DNA of 57,738 nucleotides, from the NCBI GenBank assembly GCA_008933615.1, contig WBUR01000027.1, forward strand, positions 1-57,738. The letters are read 5' to 3'. A model generated the notes under the pieces. The model saw nothing but the letters and a program-made list of their open reading frames with translations, did no database searches and was not told the DNA's origin. The translations under genes and the position numbers were made by a program. The stretch comes from a bacterium (GTDB taxonomy: Bacteria > CLD3 > SB21). Positions within the stretch are counted from its first letter, which is position 1. Every line of letters begins with the position of its first letter. Positions 4,623 through 51,665 of the stretch are shown here, piece by piece.

Positions 4623-4660
4623 GGTGAGGGAGTAACAATGTTACTTCCTCACCCGTTTTT
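4623..4660 (+). terminator. Terminator after GIY-YIG gene
   Basis: A 14-bp stem (4623-4636 with 4640-4653, one G-T pair) with a 3-nt loop is followed by CG and T5. It ends inside the stop codon of the convergent mod gene. The T-tract is on the plus strand. Confidence 0.75.
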
Positions 4661-7259
4661 ACTCCACCTCCATTACTTTCAAACTCTCAATCCCTCTATC
4701 ATCCACGATCTTTACCGCTATCCGGTTATGCTTGCCCGGCTCAAAGGGCAGTGAGATCGTGCCGCGATAGGCTTCGATCAAGTCTTCGTCTATCTCGGCT
4801 TTCAGATTTCGTGCGAGACGTGACCAGCCTTCATTCTCAGCGGCCATCGGAAAAAATACCTGACGTGGAAATAAACTGCGCCCATCGTAATCCGTATCAA
4901 GCAGCCACATGGCAATACGTTCGTTTCCGCCGGAATCAATCGTTCCGGTTTTGGTGTTGTAATAATCAAATCCAAGAACATCGACTTGATAGTTTCCTTT
5001 GGCGTCACCCGATTTGATCTTCGACAATTTCACATCCGGCTGACCGATAAGCCAGAAGCTTTCACTGCTGGAACGTTTTTTTCTCAGATCGTCCGTAAGT
5101 AGATCGGCATTCATCTGAACTTTCAGAAAAAGCATGCCCGCTTTTTGTGCATCGGTTTCGTCAATATCTTTGGCGGCTTCGGGATCGAACTGGAATGCGG
5201 CAAATACAACCAGATCCGGTTTCGGTTTTAATGTGCTGGCTTCTTCCCAGGCAAGTTCCACCTGCCGCTGTTCCAGCGGGCCGTGCTCCGGGCCAAATGA
5301 AATGACGACGCGCTGAATTGCTTTGTATTCCTTGATCGTTTCGCGAACAGAATCGGAACCTTTGTCATTCGTCTTTGTTTCCGCTTCGGCGTGAAGCCAT
5401 CGCGTGCCCGACATAGCTTCTACACGCGAGAAAAGAATATATTGGCCGTTTTTCCCGCGTATGCCCGATTTGAGCAATTCGTCGCGCCACTCACGCTGAC
5501 GTAATGTTTCACCGGAACGTGCAATGGTCGTATCAGCTTCCTGCTTAGATGATTCTATTGCACCGATAGCTTCTAACGCTTTTACAACAGGCGCCGGTAC
5601 CGCTTCCACAGTGAACGGCCCTGTTACTCTTTCTTTTTTGGAATCTGCGATTGGTTGATCGTAGAAATAAATCTCGTCTGGCTGTAAATTGTTTGCAAGT
5701 GTTTCTAATTTTATTCTTTTGGAAGATCTATATCTAAAACCACTTCCTACACCCTCGTTAGGATGAGCAAATTCGTAATATTCAAAATTTGCCGTCATTA
5801 ATCTTTGCTTTGCCAATGCAATAGCAATTCGTGAAGTATCACATGTAATCCATCGTCTTCCCCATTGCTCGGCAACAAATGCCGTTGTTCCGCTTCCACA
5901 AGTAATATCAAGAACCAAATCTCCGGGCATACTTGTTAAGAGCATACATCGCTGTATTGGCAATTCATCAGTTTGCACGGCATAGACTGGGAACTGTTCT
6001 GCAAGAGTATCATCCCAAAGGTTATTTAAGATTTGATATGGGAAATCACTATAAAATATTTTATAAGGACGTGTTGGGCTAGTACCAACTAGACGATTTA
6101 ATTCAGCTAACCTCTTCATCCCTTGTGGATTCGCTTTCCACTCATGCCCGCTTGGTGGATGTAAAGTTTTAGCTTCAAATTTTATCGGTTCTGTGTATTT
6201 AGGTTCTTTGCTTTTTTTGGAAGCTGAATGAGTTCTGAAAACTTTTGATAAATCTAGATTGGGGTTTTGAATATCCGCCTCTGTTATATTCCTAACTTCA
6301 CCTTTGTCTTGATAAAACCTGAATTCACCTCGAAGCTGTTCTTCTTTATTTGATGGCACATACAACGGGTTTACTTTCACCTTTTCAATATCTTTTGCAA
6401 ACCAAATTATATAATCAAATAGTTCAAATAGTCCCTTACCAAATCTTGAAAGGAATGAAGCTCTCTTTTTAAAAGGAATAATATTTACACAATTATCGTA
6501 ACCGAAAATTTCATCCATCACTGCTTTAACGAGGTGCAAATTATTGTCATTGATTTGAACAAAAATACTCCCGGATTCATCCAACATGTTTCTTGCTAAT
6601 AAGAATCTATCTCTAAGGTAAGTTAAATATGAATGAATACCCAATTCCCATGTATCACGGAATGCTTTTATCATTTCAGGTTCAGCAGTCAAGTCTTCGT
6701 CTTTTCCATCTTCGACATTTTTTTTATTAACGAAGGGCATAAAATTACTTCCATATTTAATTCCGTACGGCGGGTCGAAGTAGATCATTTGCACTTGTCC
6801 GCCGAGGCCCTCTTTTTCGAGGAGTGAATTCATCACAAGCAAAGAGTCGCCTGCTATCAGGCGGTTGCTCCAGTTATGCCGGTGCTTATAGAAATCAATC
6901 GCGTCCCGCAGGGGCGGGTTTTCGTCCTTGCTACTGAATAGCGACATCTGTTCGTAGTTCGATCCGTTCTTGTTTCGCACCGCTTCGATGATCGAGCGCG
7001 GGTCTATTCGTTCGTGGACATGCAGCGACACCGTAGGAATTTCAAAAGATGTGTGTTCCGCCTTGCCCGCCCATACAAGCTGTGGATCAAGATGCGGATC
7101 GTATTGGTACGTTTTTTTTGGTTGTCCCTGCTTGACATCCGGATCGGTATCCGGCGTGACGAGACCTACCGGCGGATTATTGACCCGCTGTTTGTCCTTG
7201 TGTTCGTATTGCTCGATAGGCTTTTTCTTGGCGGGGGATTTAGTTTTTCGTTTTTGCAT
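4659..7259 (-). CDS. mod: Type III-like site-specific DNA methyltransferase Mod
   Basis: Adenine-N6-type DNA methyltransferase of 866 aa, the modification subunit that would recognise the target and protect host DNA. The catalytic motif DPPYGIKYG is at about residues 162-170 and the S-adenosylmethionine motif DITCGSGTTAFVAEQW at about 450, the beta-class order used by Type III Mod proteins. The target-recognition region lies between them. The protein is longer than a typical Mod, with about 350 residues after motif I. The N terminus is basic and low complexity (lysine and proline rich). Res lies on the same strand beyond an accessory block. A hairpin sits just upstream of the start. Confidence 0.88.
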   Translation of the reverse strand: MQKRKTKSPAKKKPIEQYEHKDKQRVNNPPVGLVTPDTDPDVKQGQPKKTYQYDPHLDPQLVWAGKAEHTSFEIPTVSLHVHERIDPRSIIEAVRNKNGSNYEQMSLFSSKDENPPLRDAIDFYKHRHNWSNRLIAGDSLLVMNSLLEKEGLGGQVQMIYFDPPYGIKYGSNFMPFVNKKNVEDGKDEDLTAEPEMIKAFRDTWELGIHSYLTYLRDRFLLARNMLDESGSIFVQINDNNLHLVKAVMDEIFGYDNCVNIIPFKKRASFLSRFGKGLFELFDYIIWFAKDIEKVKVNPLYVPSNKEEQLRGEFRFYQDKGEVRNITEADIQNPNLDLSKVFRTHSASKKSKEPKYTEPIKFEAKTLHPPSGHEWKANPQGMKRLAELNRLVGTSPTRPYKIFYSDFPYQILNNLWDDTLAEQFPVYAVQTDELPIQRCMLLTSMPGDLVLDITCGSGTTAFVAEQWGRRWITCDTSRIAIALAKQRLMTANFEYYEFAHPNEGVGSGFRYRSSKRIKLETLANNLQPDEIYFYDQPIADSKKERVTGPFTVEAVPAPVVKALEAIGAIESSKQEADTTIARSGETLRQREWRDELLKSGIRGKNGQYILFSRVEAMSGTRWLHAEAETKTNDKGSDSVRETIKEYKAIQRVVISFGPEHGPLEQRQVELAWEEASTLKPKPDLVVFAAFQFDPEAAKDIDETDAQKAGMLFLKVQMNADLLTDDLRKKRSSSESFWLIGQPDVKLSKIKSGDAKGNYQVDVLGFDYYNTKTGTIDSGGNERIAMWLLDTDYDGRSLFPRQVFFPMAAENEGWSRLARNLKAEIDEDLIEAYRGTISLPFEPGKHNRIAVKIVDDRGIESLKVMEVE

Positions 7260-10611: not shown

Positions 10612-10796
10612 GATTATCTAACGAAAAACTGAGATCCATCCTGGAAGATAATGGAACAAAGATGGATGATGTAAAACTCGCTAAACTGGTGGAACTGCTT
10701 TACCAATTGGCAGAGATAGATTATGCTATTTTTAAATCAAAGGAATCAATTGACAACGAGAAGAATTCAGAGTACTTTCTGGAAAAAGCATCATGA
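10608..10796 (+). CDS. Small coiled protein before the recombinase
   Basis: Protein of 62 aa, acidic and helical, unrecognised. The start is placed at ATG 10608 because it overlaps the upstream stop as ATGA; an in-frame TTG at 10599 is the only alternative. Its own stop overlaps the recombinase start in the same way. This coupling suggests it is made in step with the recombinase and may bind it. Confidence 0.55.
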   Translation: MRLSNEKLRSILEDNGTKMDDVKLAKLVELLYQLAEIDYAIFKSKESIDNEKNSEYFLEKAS

Positions 10797-12310
10797 AAAA
10801 TGTTGTAATATATCCTCGTGTTTCGACCGGTGACCAGGTCCACGGCTATTCGCTTCGTGACCAGGAAGATAAGCTGCGTCGACATTGTGAACGAAATGGT
10901 CTTATAATTCACAAACACTTCGAAGATAGTCAGTCAGGTAAGAATTTCAACCGCAAAGAGTTCCAAAAAATAATTGAATATGTTAAGAGCAATCCTATCA
11001 TTGACGGATTATTGGTAGTGAAATGGGATCGATTTTCAAGAGCCGAAATTGACGAATCGATAACGATGATCAAAAAATTTCGAAAGCTCGGAGTAGAAGT
11101 TCAGGCCATAGAACAACCGCTCAATTGGAATGATCCTAATCACAAATGGATGCTATCCATTTATCTGACGGGTGCAAACGTAGAGAATGATCAAATATCG
11201 AATAGAGTAAAAGTTTGTATGCGACGCGCGATGTTAGAAGGCAGGTGGATGGGCAGCGCGCCTTTCGGGTATCGTAATTCGCGAGACGAAAAGATGAAGC
11301 CGATCATTGTGCCTAATGAAAATGCAGAGACGGTAAGGTCGATTTTCCGAGATTTCACATCAGGTCAGACCGATGTTTTTGCACTATTCAAGAAGTACAG
11401 TGCATTAGCTTATAATGGCTCCCGAAGTAACCTATACAACCTCCTTACAAATCCAGTTTATATCGGAAAAATAAGAATCAAATCAGGTGATAGAACACCG
11501 GAGACTATGGTTGATGGAATTCATGAAGCAATTATTTCTGACGATATGTTTGAGAAGGCTCAGGCAATAATCTCTGGGCGACATGTGAAAAAGACGAGAA
11601 ACCTTAATACAAACGTTCCTCTCAAAGGTCACATCTTGTGTTCAAAATGCGGCAAACCAATGACATGTGGAACTGCAAATGGGAACGGCGGAAAGTATTG
11701 GTATTATCGATGCAATCCGTGCCGAGAGATCGTGTCCGTTGAAAAAGCCGATAGACTCTTACAAGAACATATGGCATGCTACAGGCTCCAGCCTGAAGTA
11801 GCTGAAATTTATTTGACAGTCGCACAAGATGTGTTTGAACAAAAAGAAAAGTCTGAGCAGACGGAAGCCATGAGGCTAGACAAGGAGATTCAGAAAACAG
11901 AAGCCAGAATTTCAAGCTTAGATATGAAGTTCATCGACGATGCTGTTGACAAGGCGACTTATGGCTCACTGAAAAAACAATTGAAGGCTGAAATTGATGT
12001 TCTCAAAGGACAGCGTCACGATATGACGTCTGTTAAAGGTAAGGAATTCTTGAAATACCTGGCGGGTGCTTGTACATTGCTAACAGACCTCGATCAGCGT
12101 TACAAACAAGCTCCTTCTGAAATTAAGAGTCAAATACTTGGTTGCATATTTCCTGAAAAATTACATTTTCAGAAAAATAGTTATGCAACCACGAAATTGA
12201 ACCCTATTCTCGCTTCAATCCTATCAAAAAACAATACGTTGGAAAACAAAAAAATCGCCACTACTGATGGCGATCTTGTTGGGTGGACCCGACTGGATTC
12301 GAACCAGTGA
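10793..12310 (+). CDS. Large serine recombinase (integrase)
   Basis: Site-specific recombinase of 505 aa. The resolvase domain starts YPRVSTGDQ with the catalytic serine at residue 11. It is followed by the recombinase domain (GSAPFGYRN, about 148-156), a zinc ribbon (CSKCGKPM near 283 and YRCNPC near 307) and a coiled coil (about 340-420). It would integrate and excise the island. The last 17 residues are odd: they are encoded by the terminator and 3' part of the oppositely oriented tRNA-Val gene, ending LVGWTRLDSNQ. The native C terminus may have been replaced at the junction, so the tRNA is a candidate attachment site. Confidence 0.9.
   Translation: MKNVVIYPRVSTGDQVHGYSLRDQEDKLRRHCERNGLIIHKHFEDSQSGKNFNRKEFQKIIEYVKSNPIIDGLLVVKWDRFSRAEIDESITMIKKFRKLGVEVQAIEQPLNWNDPNHKWMLSIYLTGANVENDQISNRVKVCMRRAMLEGRWMGSAPFGYRNSRDEKMKPIIVPNENAETVRSIFRDFTSGQTDVFALFKKYSALAYNGSRSNLYNLLTNPVYIGKIRIKSGDRTPETMVDGIHEAIISDDMFEKAQAIISGRHVKKTRNLNTNVPLKGHILCSKCGKPMTCGTANGNGGKYWYYRCNPCREIVSVEKADRLLQEHMACYRLQPEVAEIYLTVAQDVFEQKEKSEQTEAMRLDKEIQKTEARISSLDMKFIDDAVDKATYGSLKKQLKAEIDVLKGQRHDMTSVKGKEFLKYLAGACTLLTDLDQRYKQAPSEIKSQILGCIFPEKLHFQKNSYATTKLNPILASILSKNNTLENKKIATTDGDLVGWTRLDSNQ
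12248..12274 (-). terminator. Terminator of the tRNA operon, inside the recombinase 3' end
   Basis: ATCGCCA (12254-12260) pairs perfectly with TGGCGAT (12268-12274) around a 7-nt loop. Six As at 12248-12253 read as a T-tract on the minus strand, downstream of tRNA-Val. It lies within the coding end of the recombinase. Confidence 0.75.
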
Positions 12311-15100: not shown

Positions 15101-15505
15101 TTGAAAATAAATACAAAACTACTCATGTCTTCCAGCGCCATTGTCATGGGAGTGCTGGGCATATCCGTTTCATTTCTTCCTCAGGAAATACTGCGCAGCG
15201 AAGGCATTGAACCTGCAGTTCTCCCTGTGTTGTTACTGCAAATCCTCGGAGCTCTTCTCATGGCATTCGCGATGGTCAACTGGATGGCCAAAGATATTCT
15301 TATCGGCGGAATTTACAGCAGGCCTGTTGCGGTGGGAAACTTTATGCATTTTATGGTTGGCGCGCTGGCGCTGATCAAAGGAGCATTCAAGAACCCCGAT
15401 ATGCCAGTTCTATGGGCGGCGGGTGTTATCTATATCGTATTTGCCGTGGGATTTGCTATAGTCCTTTTTTTCCATCCAACTAAAATAAACATTGACAATC
15501 CGTAA
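15101..15505 (+). CDS. Small integral membrane protein
   Basis: Unrecognised membrane protein of about 134 aa with four hydrophobic segments and short polar loops, no catalytic motif. The start is uncertain: TTG at 15101 gives MKINTKLLMSSS, ATG at 15125 gives MSSSAIV; longer readings run into the dispersed repeat upstream. A 7-bp hairpin (15555-15571) follows the gene and may terminate it. Confidence 0.6.
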   Translation: MKINTKLLMSSSAIVMGVLGISVSFLPQEILRSEGIEPAVLPVLLLQILGALLMAFAMVNWMAKDILIGGIYSRPVAVGNFMHFMVGALALIKGAFKNPDMPVLWAAGVIYIVFAVGFAIVLFFHPTKINIDNP

Positions 15506-15613
15506 TCTTTTACCTTAACTTTCCTTTGTTCGTTATCCAAATCTTGCTTATCTGACATCTGCCCCAGATGTATTATTCAATGAACTACCAAATCTAAAAG
15601 AGGAGAAACTATC

Positions 15614-16803
15614 ATGAAACACATTTCTATCAAGCCACTAATGGCAAATCTTGTCTTGTCTTGTCTTGTCTTGTCTTGTCTTGCACAGATGAACAGACCA
15701 ACGTAAAAGATGATGGTCAAATTTCATTTAGTATGCCTCTGTCTGTAGCTAAAACACAAGCCGGAATCCAAATTGATAGCGTTCGTGTAAATTTAAGTGG
15801 GCCCACAAATACGAGTGGCAATTTAGTAATTTCCAATGATTCTACAGTAGCTTCTGGTTCATTTAATAATTTAGTTGCTGGAGAATACTCAATTTCTATT
15901 CTTGCGTTTGCAAACCATGATACGGTCGCTACTGGATCTGGAAATGCCACGGTCATACCTGGACAGATTACAAATGCAACTATAACACTGACCCTCTTAA
16001 CTGGTGGTTTGAATATTAATGTAAATTGGAGCATACCTCAAACGATAGTTTATGTAAAAGATGTGGCAGGTATTCAACAGATTTGTACAATCAATACAGA
16101 TAGTACCAACTTTACAATCCTTACATCTTTTTCCTCCAATCCTTCAACAATTGGAAAGCCGGCGTATTCACCAGACGGAAACAAGATTGCATTTTATCTT
16201 AATGATGGATCTGGCATAAATATATGGGTTATGAATTCTAATGGCTCAAATCTAACTCAGGTGACATTTAACAATGAATCGTTCATAGGAGAAAGACCTG
16301 AATTCTCTTCAACATCTGATGTATTATATTATCGTCGAACAACCGGGGCAGGTGCTGCTTCAATCTGGAGGGTTGACATTAATGGTCAAAATGACAGCTT
16401 ATACAATGACTTCTCTGGTAACGAATATATGATAGAGTTCATTGGAAACAGTTATCTGATGTTTTTTGTCCATGGCGGAGGTATCTATCGAACAAATAGC
16501 CTCATTGATTTGGCTTCAACTTTATTGATTAGCGGAGCTCAATATCCTGCTGTCAATCATGATTTAACAAAACTTGCATACGCTGGTTCCGGGTTTAATT
16601 CAATATGGATTTCTAATCTTGATGGAACATCACCTCTACTTTTAAAGGATGAAGGTGTATTTAGTGGCTCAGTATCGTTTACAAAAGACGGCCAATATGT
16701 TGTATATAGTAGGAATGGCGCCACTATCAAAATTGTAAAGATTGATGGCAGTGCGGAAAAAATAATTACTGATGGCTGGGACCCTATGGCAAAACCAAAT
16801 TAA
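15614..16803 (+). CDS. Phase-variable surface lipoprotein with PD40/TolB-like propeller, out of frame in this copy
   Basis: The ATG at 15614, seven bases after GGAGA, opens a lipoprotein signal peptide that runs through a CTTGT repeat. In the present sequence that frame ends after 30 residues, and the large downstream frame is reached only by a shift. Removing one 5-bp unit, or adding two, joins them into a 394-aa lipoprotein with lipobox VLSC followed by TDEQ. The body has an N-terminal beta domain (about 40-150) and PD40/TolB-like blades (AYSPDGNKIAFY, SFTKDGQYVVYS), as in cell-surface beta-propellers. The gene therefore appears to be in the OFF state, or silent. Followed by a terminator. 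Confidence 0.7.
15650..15684 (+). repeat. Pentanucleotide repeat (CTTGT)6 plus CTTGC
   Basis: Six perfect CTTGT units and a seventh ending in C lie within the signal-peptide region. Because the unit is 5 bp, any frame encodes the same cyclic peptide Leu-Val-Leu-Ser-Cys, so the hydrophobic core and lipobox survive in all frames while the downstream frame changes with copy number. Confidence 0.9.
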
Positions 16804-16905
16804 TCACTTGATTCTGGTCTTTTGAGGGCAGATACCGGAAATCATACAAAAAAATAAGATTGTTCTCGTATTTCACCAAATGCATTTTATCGATTAACAA
16901 AAAAA

Positions 16906-16937
16906 GCAATTCCGCATATTCGGAGTTGCTTTTTTTA
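16906..16937 (+). terminator. Terminator after the phase-variable lipoprotein gene
   Basis: GCAATTCCG (16906-16914) and CGGAGTTGC (16921-16929) pair over 9 bp with one G-T, followed by T8; a run of As precedes, so it may work in both directions. Confidence 0.8.
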
Positions 16938-16986
16938 TTCTGCCAGAATTTCCCTTAACGAAGTAAGAAAATTTACAGTTTCTTTA

Positions 16987-17247
16987 CTACCTTTTACTCA
17001 GACTCAATAAATGATTTTCAATCTCGGCCATATCCAATTCTTTCAACTCACTCCGGTGCATCCACTTAAAGATCTCAATCTCTAACGCAATCCCGTCCAA
17101 ATCCGGTTGCTGCTTCTTAACGACCAACTTGGCAAAATATTTACCTGACGCATACAAACGCCCTGTCTTATGCAGCCTTTCTTCGGGGCTCATCGCCGAG
17201 ATAAGCTCAAGCATCTGTTTTTCAATTTCGGGATGTGTGTCGTTCAT
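16987..17247 (-). CDS. Small acidic helical protein
   Basis: Protein of 86 aa, unrecognised. It is helical, charged, with no signal peptide or metal motif. It stands alone, separated from the next minus-strand gene by a dispersed repeat element. Coding is supported mainly by composition and by a plausible start (MNDTHPEIEKQM). Confidence 0.5.
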   Translation of the reverse strand: MNDTHPEIEKQMLELISAMSPEERLHKTGRLYASGKYFAKLVVKKQQPDLDGIALEIEIFKWMHRSELKELDMAEIENHLLSLSKR

Positions 17248-46672: not shown

Positions 46673-49471
46673 TTATTGATACGAAAACAGCATGGCGTAA
46701 ATGATCCAGAGCACGATGCTAAATCCGATCGTCAGCGCGGCCCACCCGAATATACGAATGGCTTTGATCACGATTGGTTGATACGGTTCAACCAGATATT
46801 TTTCAAGTTCGCCACTCGCAACCAGTGCCTCGTATTCGGCGGGTTTGTCGCGCTTAAATTCTTCCACCGGCATACGCCCGGTGAATACGACAATATCCAT
46901 CGGAAATTTTTCCGGACGCAGATGGGTATTAAAGAAGTGGACGGTGAAGATAAATCCGACAGCGAGCAGCGCCTCATCGGAGTGAATGATCGTTGCGATA
47001 TTGATGGCCCATCCCGGCAATACGACGGTAAAAAATTCAGGAAACCACAACATGAGTCCGGTGGAACCGATCACGGCAACTCCCCAGAATACGGCAAAGT
47101 AATCGAATTTTTCCCAATAAGTCCAGCGGCCATAATGCGGACGCTGCCCCATACCAAGAAACCATTTGACGGATCCGATAAAATCCTGCAAGTCCTTTTT
47201 GTTGAACATGAGAGAACCCGGGCTGAATATCATCGCTTTCCAGCTTTTGAATTCTCGCCGTTTTCGTCTGACCAGATCGGTAATGTGGGTAATAAAAATA
47301 CCAAACATGAAGACCCCGGCCAAGCGATGTATATAACCCGCCGATTCGAAGCCGCCGAAGAAATTAGAAACGAATCGCGCCCATCCTGTATTTGAGAATT
47401 TAAGCGTCAGTCCAGTCAGAGCAAGACTGATAAAGCTGACTATCATGACAATATGAAGAATACGGTTCAAACGAGTAAATCGTTGAAATTGTTTTTCACC
47501 GGGATCAACCGCGTATTCCTTATGCGCATTCCGCATCTGCAGCGCGCGCGGCAGCCAAAGCAGCGTGTGAAGTCCGCTGAAAAAAAATGTAGTTAAAAGC
47601 AGCCCCGTCATCCCCCAGAAAACCCAGAATAAGCCCGGATATTTGTCCGGATCATGGTGCGTTGCGTGCGTCAGATAACCGGCAAATTTTCGATTAGCTT
47701 CAGGATGGCATTTCTGGCATGTTGCAACTACGTTCTCCCGGCTAAGATGCGACTTCGGATCAATCACCCTTAATATATCGTGAGCGCCGTGACAATCGTA
47801 ACATTTCGCCGTCTTGGTATAACCCAGTTGCGATACTTTGCCGTGGTACGTGTCAAAATAAGTTTTCGTTATTTCCTCGTGGCATTTACCGCAGGTGTTG
47901 GTTAACTCTAATTTAAATCCCGTTTCGTCCGTTCTCCGAATGGTATGCGCCGTGTGGCAATCGTTACAAACAGGTAATTTCTTATCTGAGGTTGACACTG
48001 AGCGCGCATGAATGCTTTTATTGAACATCTCTTCAATTCCGCTGTGGCACTTACCGCAGGTCTCCGGAATATTTCTGAAATTCACGCTTGATGTAGAATC
48101 CGATGCGGGCAATTCCCGGTGAGACGAATGGCAATCGGTACATTTAGCAGTAACTAACAGCCCGCTTTTAAGCAAACCCTTGCCGTGTATACTTTCCTGA
48201 TAGTGTTCAATAATATCGTGTTCTTCGCCTTTGTACCGTACGGCCGCCTTTTCCCCTTCTCGATGACATTGCGCGCACAAATTTGGAATATTCGTCGGAT
48301 ATATCGGCGATGCAATATTTTGCTTCCCCAATACATTATGCGTGCCGTGACACTCAACACATACCGGCGCATTAGAATCGTTTTGCGCATGCAACTGGCC
48401 GTGTGTGCTGTTCTTGTAATCCTCTCCAACCTGTGCGTGGCATGACGCGCAATCTACTTTCTTGGTAACCGTTTCGCACGGACGATCTTTTCCTATGGGC
48501 GTTACACCCGTATGACATTGGCTGCATGAAATTTTATAGTGTTGCGAACCCGATACTTGCCGTTCATTCACAAACATAGCGCGTCCGTCTTTGGACTTCA
48601 GATCTTTCTTATCATGGCAAATCATACAATCGGAATTGGCCATTCCTTGTTCATAAAACGCTTTACGTGCCTTGTGCGGCTGATGACAGTCCACACAAGC
48701 CGGCAGAACATGGGCTTCCTTTTCCCACAATTCACCTTTGATCACTTTTTGATGAACGGCTTCGATCGCCTGATGACACTTGGCGCAAGTGCGGGCGATA
48801 TTGACGCGCGCAATGGACGAACGCGGATCGGTATGCGGCAAAATACGATGCGCGGTGTGGCATGACGCGCAATTGGCGCTGACGGCAAGACCTTTTTTTA
48901 GCAATCCTTCGCCGTGAATACTTTCGGAATAGTTTTCTAAAATATGCGTCTGCGGAATATCATATTTGATCTGAACCGGCGAGCCTTCGTGGTGACAACG
49001 ACCGCAGAGTTCCGGTATTTTTATCGGAGCGACAGGTGAATTGGGGTTATAACGCGAGATAATGTCGTGCGGAGCTCCGTGGCACGTGATGCAAGAAGGA
49101 GCCAACGGGTCGCCCGCTCTAAATACCTGCCCGTGCAAACCTTCATCATAAAATCTCTGAGCTGTTGTGTGGCACGATCCGCATTGCGCTTTCGAAACAA
49201 ACTCTTCATGCGGCATTTCCTGGCCTGCTAATTCCGCATGGCAGCCTATACACTTGACATCCTTATGGGCCGAATATCCGAATTTTTTTTTACTCACATA
49301 CAGCGAGACCTCACTGTTGTTTCGCTTAACGGTCAGCGTAATGTCATCGTGACAATCAAAACAGTCGCCGTTTTCCTGAGTATATAAACTATTCGTAGGA
49401 GTCAGAATACACAAACACAAAAAGGAGAACAAAATAAAACATGTTTGCATTCTAATAAGTCTTTGTATCAT
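46673..49471 (-). CDS. CbcL-like fusion: 19-haem c-type domain plus cytochrome b
   Basis: 932-aa protein: signal peptide, then 19 CXXCH motifs over about 600 residues, then a di-haem b561-type membrane domain of about 250 residues with helices carrying His (RILHIVMIVSF, YIHRLAGVFMFG, IIHSDEALLAVGFIFTVHF). The c-type region holds an internal duplication of roughly 150 residues: SIHGEGLLKKGL with CASCHTAHR recurs as SIHGKGLLKSGL with CTDCHSSHR. The architecture matches CbcL, an inner-membrane quinone-linked cytochrome of metal-reducing Geobacter, but with about twice its haems. It is expected to move electrons from menaquinol into the periplasm. Confidence 0.85.
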   Translation of the reverse strand: MIQRLIRMQTCFILFSFLCLCILTPTNSLYTQENGDCFDCHDDITLTVKRNNSEVSLYVSKKKFGYSAHKDVKCIGCHAELAGQEMPHEEFVSKAQCGSCHTTAQRFYDEGLHGQVFRAGDPLAPSCITCHGAPHDIISRYNPNSPVAPIKIPELCGRCHHEGSPVQIKYDIPQTHILENYSESIHGEGLLKKGLAVSANCASCHTAHRILPHTDPRSSIARVNIARTCAKCHQAIEAVHQKVIKGELWEKEAHVLPACVDCHQPHKARKAFYEQGMANSDCMICHDKKDLKSKDGRAMFVNERQVSGSQHYKISCSQCHTGVTPIGKDRPCETVTKKVDCASCHAQVGEDYKNSTHGQLHAQNDSNAPVCVECHGTHNVLGKQNIASPIYPTNIPNLCAQCHREGEKAAVRYKGEEHDIIEHYQESIHGKGLLKSGLLVTAKCTDCHSSHRELPASDSTSSVNFRNIPETCGKCHSGIEEMFNKSIHARSVSTSDKKLPVCNDCHTAHTIRRTDETGFKLELTNTCGKCHEEITKTYFDTYHGKVSQLGYTKTAKCYDCHGAHDILRVIDPKSHLSRENVVATCQKCHPEANRKFAGYLTHATHHDPDKYPGLFWVFWGMTGLLLTTFFFSGLHTLLWLPRALQMRNAHKEYAVDPGEKQFQRFTRLNRILHIVMIVSFISLALTGLTLKFSNTGWARFVSNFFGGFESAGYIHRLAGVFMFGIFITHITDLVRRKRREFKSWKAMIFSPGSLMFNKKDLQDFIGSVKWFLGMGQRPHYGRWTYWEKFDYFAVFWGVAVIGSTGLMLWFPEFFTVVLPGWAINIATIIHSDEALLAVGFIFTVHFFNTHLRPEKFPMDIVVFTGRMPVEEFKRDKPAEYEALVASGELEKYLVEPYQPIVIKAIRIFGWAALTIGFSIVLWIIYAMLFSYQ

Positions 49472-49511
49472 TATTGTATCCTGTTATTCATACCAAGGGC
49501 TACATCCTACA

Positions 49512-51665
49512 TCATAATTTATCGGAATCCGTATTCTTTTTGGATTCCTCATATTCCTTTTTTTTGATCTCGCGTAATTCCAACGGATGTTCGTCGTGCA
49601 TTTCTTCTTCAGAAACTTTTCCAGTCAACCAGGCTAAACTCATAGGATAAACATCCGGATTAAATATGACAAAATAAAAATGCCATACGATTATTGCCAA
49701 CGTGGCCAGTATCGCTTCGTAGAAATGGATCGTGCGGGCGATGTCCCATCCTAATTTTGACAACATGCCCATTGATGTATTTTCAAACCACATGATCACG
49801 CCGGTTACGCCCATGACAACCGTTCCCCAAACCAGCGCCCAATATTCGCTTTTTTCGATATAACTGAACCGACCGAACTGAGGTTTTTCTTTGCGAACTC
49901 CGGCATAATATCGGAAAGCGTCCATCAGATCAGTGAAGTCCTTGCGTCGCGGCAGCAGATCTTTGACCAACTGGCTCCCGCGGGGATTAAAGAAAATATA
50001 GTAGGTGTGATACAGGCTTGCTAAAACCATAGTAACACCGGCAATGCGGTGGATCCAGCTTCTGAATTCAAACACATTATCGCTAAGGTTGCGAATAGAT
50101 ACCACCCACCAGGCTTCGGGATAGCGGAGCATGAAACCTGTAATTACAAGCAGTATGAAACTGATGACCAAAGTGCCGTGCTGGAGCCTCTCGTTTAACG
50201 TCATGCGTTCATACATCCGGTGGTCAATTTCTTCCGGTTTGATTAACCCCTCATGGATCTTCAGTTTCCGCCGCACCTTCTTAACGAAATCGACCGCATT
50301 GTGCAGGCCCATTCCTCCGATCAGAACCACGATCAGCCAGAAATACAAATTAGCTATCCAGTATAAGATCGGATCTTCTTCTTTTGATTCGGTAGTGGAA
50401 TGAACGGACCCGATGGCAAAACGCGTATTGGCTCCGGGATGGCACTTGCCGCAGGTTTTGATAAGATTTTCCTTGTTGACTGACGACGTCGAATCGCTCG
50501 AGTGTTTGATACTGTGGGCGCCATGACAACTGGCGCAATTGACAACTTCCACCGCTCCGCCGCGCACCGATAAACCGTGGTAGCTATCCGAAAATGATTT
50601 GAAACGATCGGTGGATAATCCGTATTTCTGGGACATCTTTACTGAGGCATGGCATGTTCCGCATACTTTTTGAGAAACATTTTTGGCGGATACCGGTGAG
50701 TCCGGATCGGTATGTTTGAGTATGTCGTGCTCACCGTGGCAATCCGTGCATACCGGAGCGTCTTTGTTGCCTTTCAAAACGGCCTTCGCATGCACGCTGG
50801 TAGAAAATTCTTTCTCAATTCCACCGTGGCACTTCGCGCAAACCTGCTCAATGTTCTGTTTGTTAACACGCGAACTTTCCGAAATGCTTTTGTTCATTTC
50901 GTGACTGCCATGACAATCTACACAACTCGCCGCTTTGGCGTTACCGCCGCGCAGCGCCGATCCGTGAATACTCTTGTCATAGGATTCAATAAATTTTGTG
51001 CCGCGAACGGTCATGTCGGCGACGTCCTGATTATCCAAATGGCATGATATACAAACCTTTTCCTGCGTCAGTTTCAGTTGAACCGAATCCAGTGCGGCAG
51101 TCACTCTGGTTATATTGCTCTGATGACAATTCAGGCAAAGCGGCGCTTCTTTGATTCCCCTTTCGGCGGCCTTGTGATGCTCGGAATGAAGAAATTTTTT
51201 GGTGACGTCCTCATGGCATTTTCCGCATGCATGGATGATATTCTCCTTGCTGAACTTGGTTCCTTCGATTTTTGGCGACTGCACCTCATGCGTCCCGTGA
51301 CATCCTTTGCAATCCACGTCAGGAGTACCGCCTCGACCCGAGGCTTTGACCATGTTGATATGAAACGCATGTTTTGTTAATGCTTTATTATGGCAGGATA
51401 AACAATTAACTGCAGTCATAGGCTCTTTATGCGGAACGTTGTCCGGGTCAAAACCTGTGTGGCAGCCAACGCAGGACACCTTGTCATGCGTCGAGTGGCT
51501 TAAAACCTTTTCATTCACATACAAAGAAACTTCTTTATTATACTTGGTCATGGTTAACGAATTGTCGTTGTGACATTCCAAACAAGCCTGACTGGTCTGG
51601 CCAACTAGAGGCACACTCCCGAGCATGAGTAAAACAAATAACAGAGTAGCACGTGTCATTTTCAT
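49512..51665 (-). CDS. CbcL-like fusion: 13-haem c-type domain plus cytochrome b
   Basis: 717-aa protein with signal peptide, 13 CXXCH motifs in the first about 410 residues, and a C-terminal cytochrome b561-like domain (helices with LQHGTLVISF, WIHRIAGVTMV, TIHFYEAILATLAII). Its b domain and module layout match the 932-aa neighbour (NPDVYPM against RPEKFPM near the end; SIHG before haem pairs), so the two are paralogues. It probably also exchanges electrons between menaquinone and periplasmic cytochromes. The charged C terminus (EEEMHDEHPLELREIKKK) is cytoplasmic. Confidence 0.85.
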   Translation of the reverse strand: MKMTRATLLFVLLMLGSVPLVGQTSQACLECHNDNSLTMTKYNKEVSLYVNEKVLSHSTHDKVSCVGCHTGFDPDNVPHKEPMTAVNCLSCHNKALTKHAFHINMVKASGRGGTPDVDCKGCHGTHEVQSPKIEGTKFSKENIIHACGKCHEDVTKKFLHSEHHKAAERGIKEAPLCLNCHQSNITRVTAALDSVQLKLTQEKVCISCHLDNQDVADMTVRGTKFIESYDKSIHGSALRGGNAKAASCVDCHGSHEMNKSISESSRVNKQNIEQVCAKCHGGIEKEFSTSVHAKAVLKGNKDAPVCTDCHGEHDILKHTDPDSPVSAKNVSQKVCGTCHASVKMSQKYGLSTDRFKSFSDSYHGLSVRGGAVEVVNCASCHGAHSIKHSSDSTSSVNKENLIKTCGKCHPGANTRFAIGSVHSTTESKEEDPILYWIANLYFWLIVVLIGGMGLHNAVDFVKKVRRKLKIHEGLIKPEEIDHRMYERMTLNERLQHGTLVISFILLVITGFMLRYPEAWWVVSIRNLSDNVFEFRSWIHRIAGVTMVLASLYHTYYIFFNPRGSQLVKDLLPRRKDFTDLMDAFRYYAGVRKEKPQFGRFSYIEKSEYWALVWGTVVMGVTGVIMWFENTSMGMLSKLGWDIARTIHFYEAILATLAIIVWHFYFVIFNPDVYPMSLAWLTGKVSEEEMHDEHPLELREIKKKEYEESKKNTDSDKL

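Follow-up and report, generated by a model that had tools for sequence, protein, structure and literature searches.

Switches in which a microsatellite lies within signal-peptide codons are known mainly from host-adapted pathogens. In the opa genes of Neisseria, a (CTCTT)n tract resides in the leader-peptide region and the number of units sets the reading frame; the Opa proteins are outer-membrane barrels encoded by a family of about 11 loci, for which switching has been measured at about 1e-3 per cell per generation (PMC3960869). Similarly, the ON and OFF states of Helicobacter pylori oipA are determined by frame through a (CT)n tract in the signal-peptide region, and variation among strains has been documented (PMC10564699). 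Phase-variable lipoproteins have been described as well, but for Vlp and Vpma of Mycoplasma this relies mainly on promoter changes or on site-specific recombination (PMC11868660, PMC2268961), and no repeat that shifts the frame within the signal peptide is involved. The locus described here, which is located in a 57,738-nt stretch of bacterial DNA (the window), is probably an Opa-like translational contingency, or phase-variation, locus that was assembled in its OFF state. As in opa, a 5-bp unit lies within the signal-peptide codons and its count would set the frame of a cell-envelope protein, and, as in oipA, a repeat inside these codons would decide between ON and OFF by frame. Several points set it apart from opa: a single locus is present, its predicted product is a lipoprotein whose lipobox is encoded by the repeat as well, switching is presumed where that of opa has been measured, and the sequences are unrelated; oipA differs in that its repeat is a dinucleotide and its product is an outer-membrane protein and not a lipoprotein. 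We regard the locus as a probable further instance of an established type of switch, its particular twist being that the repeat unit codes for a lipobox; the gene is accessory and belongs to an uncultured lineage. A search of the literature for a lipobox encoded by a repeat returned no description.

Features of the locus and its surroundings (positions are those of the window)
Feature	Position	Strand	Basis
Segment absent from the congeners G001 and G002 at the same site; GC 37% vs 44% for the window	15486..17003 (approximate)		Synteny comparison, GC
Ribosome-binding site GAGGAG, 8 nt 5' of the ATG	15600..15605	+	Sequence read
OFF reading frame as assembled, 7 units, 30-aa peptide MKHISIKPLMANLVLSCLVLSCLAQMNRPT followed by stop	15614..15706	+	Translation from ATG 15614
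Pentamer tract, encoding (LVLSC)n as predicted signal-peptide hydrophobic core and lipobox	15649..15684	+	Sequence read, TRF, unit rewriting
TGC codon in the last repeat unit, lipobox Cys of the long frame (LVLSC-TDEQ)	15682..15684	+	Aligned to the lipobox Cys of the G005 homologue (SVAC-ENNQ)
Mature lipoprotein frame, 372 codons and stop, not in the register of the ATG	15685..16803	+	ORF reading, coding statistics
N-terminal beta-rich domain, 37% identical to its counterpart in a CCP/MauG lipoprotein from a related genus; end approximate	15685..16038	+	Alignment to the G005 homologue
Beta-propeller part, PD40, best full-model similarity to TolB; start approximate	16039..16800	+	PF07676, TIGR02800, TolB chains in PDB
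Inverted repeat with directly adjoining arms (22 nt each, 86% complementary) and A/T ends, resembling a terminator by eye	16896..16939	+	Repeat search

The tract consists of seven perfect TCTTG units (15649-15683; TRF score 70, 100% match) and may alternatively be parsed as six CTTGT units (15650-15679) followed by one CTTGC (15680-15684). Its pure, non-triplet unit begins to repeat at codon 12 of the frame that starts with the ATG at 15614. The long frame downstream is open already 5' of the tract, where reading of the sequence revealed no ATG, GTG or TTG in this frame; its last codon ends at 16800 and its stop codon at 16803. When unit counts from 4 to 11 were written out in silico and each was translated from the ATG at 15614, the long frame was opened by six units (394 aa) and nine units (399 aa) only, while counts of 4, 5, 7, 8, 10 and 11 all led to peptides of 22-35 aa (22 aa with five units, 27 aa with eight, 30 aa with seven and 35 aa with ten). 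In the 6-unit reading, MKHISIKPLMANLVLSCLVLSC followed by TDEQ, a basic n-region, a hydrophobic core and a lipobox of the form [LVI]-x-[ASG]-C were recognised by eye, joined to the mature part. A first-pass annotation made from the sequence alone had already reported an ATG with a good ribosome-binding site, six CTTGT units plus CTTGC and a stop after 30 residues, all of which can be read directly, and its proposal that the register is regained by losing one unit or gaining two agrees with the 6- and 9-unit readings. It had also stated that the lipobox survives any change in unit number; this holds for the peptide motif, as all registers of the CTTGT tract spell LVLSC, but only every third count joins this motif to the mature protein.

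The tract is far above chance expectation. In 458 kb of the host genome, comprising the window and twenty 20-kb stretches, the runner-up pentamer tract has 2.8 copies versus 7.0 at this locus, and in six first-order Markov simulations of equal length and equal dinucleotide content the maximum was 2.8-3.2 copies. Apart from the CTTGT tract itself, nothing with a period of 4-10 exceeded 3.5 copies in the 458 kb sampled, and a pattern search of the whole 3.77-Mb genome yielded no second CTTGT tract. Among 385 other genomes, none carried the tract in sense orientation; it recurs in a single one (G273), in reverse orientation and at the 5' terminus of a TPR-like gene unrelated to the present one. 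The idea that more lipoprotein genes might carry CTTGT tracts was thus not confirmed, either elsewhere in this genome or, in sense orientation, in the 385 others. As the 458 kb hold no other long microsatellite, nothing suggests that contingency loci are used more widely in this genome.

The long frame downstream of the tract represents a genuine gene. Judged by codon frequencies taken from 160 long open frames in the host genome, it reaches 0.05 per codon, a range in which real genes are found (they start at 0.04), whereas the other five frames score between -0.29 and -0.88. Its predicted product resembles TolB/PD40 proteins in its propeller repeats: the match to PF07676 (PD40; 1e-6, 29 bits) passes the gathering score of 20.9, while that to TIGR02800 (TolB; 9e-15, 54.5 bits) is partial and stays below the curated cut-off of 343. 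Unlike in TolB, about 90-130 residues match, far under the cut-off, and a lipid-anchor signal is predicted; no tol-pal genes were seen adjacent to the lipoprotein gene. A search of 84,980 genomes for close homologues returned remote propeller matches only, and a structure model from the single sequence, although all-beta, was too weak for a fold search (mean pLDDT 49.5). The N-terminal part has a homologue in G005, a member of a sister genus. This homologue is an intact lipoprotein, its signal being normal and about 22 residues long (MKKANLLVLSFLCLSFLFLSVAC followed by ENNQ), and its C-terminal part is a CCP/MauG di-haem peroxidase instead of a propeller. Homology between the two proteins begins at the lipobox Cys, which is here provided by the last repeat unit; this fixes the frame and shows that the tract encodes hydrophobic core and lipobox. 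Coding statistics, the homology up to the lipobox Cys and the outlier status of the tract uphold the anatomy initially proposed, i.e. a lipoprotein signal, a PD40 propeller and a frame-breaking tract in an otherwise intact gene. The lipobox and the Thr at position +2 would be consistent with a surface location. A consensus terminator scan did not call the inverted repeat downstream of the gene.

In addition to what had been annotated before, the lipoprotein gene is accessory. It resides on an insertion of about 1.5 kb with 36.5% GC, compared to 44.5% for the window, and only 3% of 1.1-kb windows have a GC content as low as that of the gene. The DHH-type gene upstream is 99% and 97% identical in the congeners G001 and G002, respectively, and synteny with the congeners continues on both sides of the segment (78-96% nucleotide identity of the flanks); in a third relative, G003, a saccharopine dehydrogenase gene follows the DHH gene almost directly. 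Acquisition of the low-GC segment in the host lineage is the simpler reading, and a recent arrival is probable, while no convincing flanking direct repeats or other mobile-element signature was found around it. The gene is missing at this site in both congeners, there is one genome per species, and a second allele with which to compare unit counts was not found. The window is a contig (C27) of a draft genome of 97 contigs (3.77 Mb, 99% complete) that contains two 16S genes of 77.9% identity (G000:C6:42481-43994 and G000:C70:604-2121). This indicates some contamination, at least one contig being probably foreign, and, together with the number of contigs, points to a metagenome bin; synteny places the window itself within the genus.

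The switch may be envisaged as follows. Slipped-strand mispairing at (CTTGT)n would add or remove 5-bp units, and six or nine units (3n) would join the start and the signal peptide to the lipid-anchored N-terminal domain and the beta-propeller, while at the remaining counts translation would end within about 22-35 residues. Each change would alter the length of the hydrophobic core and shift the lipobox, but LVLSC would be kept in every register, and every ON form would thereby stay recognisable to the machinery that exports and lipidates lipoproteins. With three units the core of an ON form would be very short, so that six and nine units are likely to be the working forms. We infer that the tract slips in the host, that the 6- and 9-unit forms are exported and lipidated, that the protein is located at the surface, and that switching is under selection.

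Save for its unit count, the gene is intact, with a ribosome-binding site, an ATG and 372 stop-free codons; its architecture, which equals that of the experimentally known opa and oipA switches, likewise supports a contingency locus. On the other side, a single allele has been assembled and no length variation was seen. Since two thirds of all unit counts give the OFF state, meeting it in the assembly says little in favour of switching, and the same picture would be expected of a dead gene; given the probable recent arrival of the low-GC segment, decay is also plausible. The gene might accordingly be a fresh pseudogene, acquired as a lipoprotein gene whose signal repeat changed once and was then fixed, with no selected reversible switching. 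Its absence from two congeners, its low GC, the impossibility of full translation from the ATG at 15614 in the assembled allele and a genome devoid of other contingency-like tracts (genome-wide for CTTGT, in 458 kb for microsatellites) all fit such a history. We nevertheless consider it unlikely, as the 372 codons have remained without a second lesion, the ribosome-binding site and the terminator-like hairpin have been kept, and the sole lesion falls precisely on an uninterrupted 7-unit microsatellite, being of the one type for which reversion is easy.

It is also conceivable that the true or majority count is six or nine and that the gene is simply ON, as the consensus at a length-variable tract in a 97-contig draft, probably a metagenome bin, may be wrong. 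However, the 35-bp tract fits within one short read and lies mid-contig between syntenic flanks, and disagreement among reads would itself mean variation, which makes such an artefact quite improbable. The chance that the 7-unit allele is translated by another route appears smaller still. TTG codons occur in frame inside the tract (15661), and an in-frame ATG (SMPLS, at about 15733) follows within about 30 nt of the OFF stop, but initiation at TTG would place the lipobox Cys after no more than seven residues and provide no basic n-region, and re-initiation would strip the signal peptide. Ribosomal frameshifting would lack a classical slippery heptamer, and the normal signal of the G005 homologue also speaks against any of these routes.

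For the favoured contingency locus, a more elaborate version might be put forward, if only tentatively: a self-templating lipobox switch, in which the microsatellite would serve at once as hydrophobic core, as frame switch and as the source of several alternative sites of lipidation, and in which the number of units would tune signal strength too, in an accessory envelope lipoprotein of a little-known, apparently environmental lineage. If the locus does switch, envelope phase variation might serve ends other than immune evasion in an uncultured lineage, such as the avoidance of phages or predators. The lipobox-coding unit offers a simple signature for sequence searches.

The same pentamer was encountered in other settings. 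In a family of phage DNA methyltransferases from IMG/VR (phrog_757, E 5e-23), an (ACAAG)n tract, read as (DKTRQ)n, lies near codon 55; its members are L094:1687-2442 (-), L107:11981-12184 (+), L099, L100, L101, L118 and L122. L094 and L107 originate from separate samples; over 1,335 aligned positions their sequences differ by nothing but a single 10-bp gap, which corresponds to seven versus five ACAAG units, and the frame runs to 252 aa in the former and is broken at 68 aa in the latter. L101, L118 and L122 have 9 or 10 units and are in frame, and L099 and L100 have 8 units and are out of frame. These genes look like a phase-variable phage methyltransferase, of which a literature search by title returned no description, and the complement of CTTGT is seen in these sequences to change its count in nature, which informs on the repeat and not on the host bacterium. 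None of the CTTGT tracts in IMG/VR was convincing as a lipoprotein signal, the coding strand there being mostly ACAAG. In the unrelated bacterium G273, two loci (L067:2744-2778, n=7, and L068:2608-2657, n=10) have near-identical 5' ends, ATGGAG(ACAAG)n, with a signal-peptide-like stretch after the repeat; in L067 a TPR-like frame follows, out of register with the ATG.

Elsewhere in the window, an 866-aa N6/N4 DNA methylase (4659-7259, -) and a serine recombinase (10793-12310, +) lie 3.5 kb apart and possibly mark a mobile or defence region. An archaeal-type GatE is encoded in this bacterial contig at 22339-24321 (-), with 379 bits to TIGR00134, above the cut-off; the neighbouring gene encodes phosphoglucose isomerase and not GatD. 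GatE is also present in the congener G001, and other relatives stay under the TIGR00134 cut-off with weaker, GatB-sized matches. Neighbouring genes in the window are respiratory, including those for multihaem cytochromes and ferredoxin oxidoreductases, and at 46673-51665 (-) two adjacent large proteins contain multihaem cytochrome c regions together with a cytochrome b part similar to formate dehydrogenase gamma.
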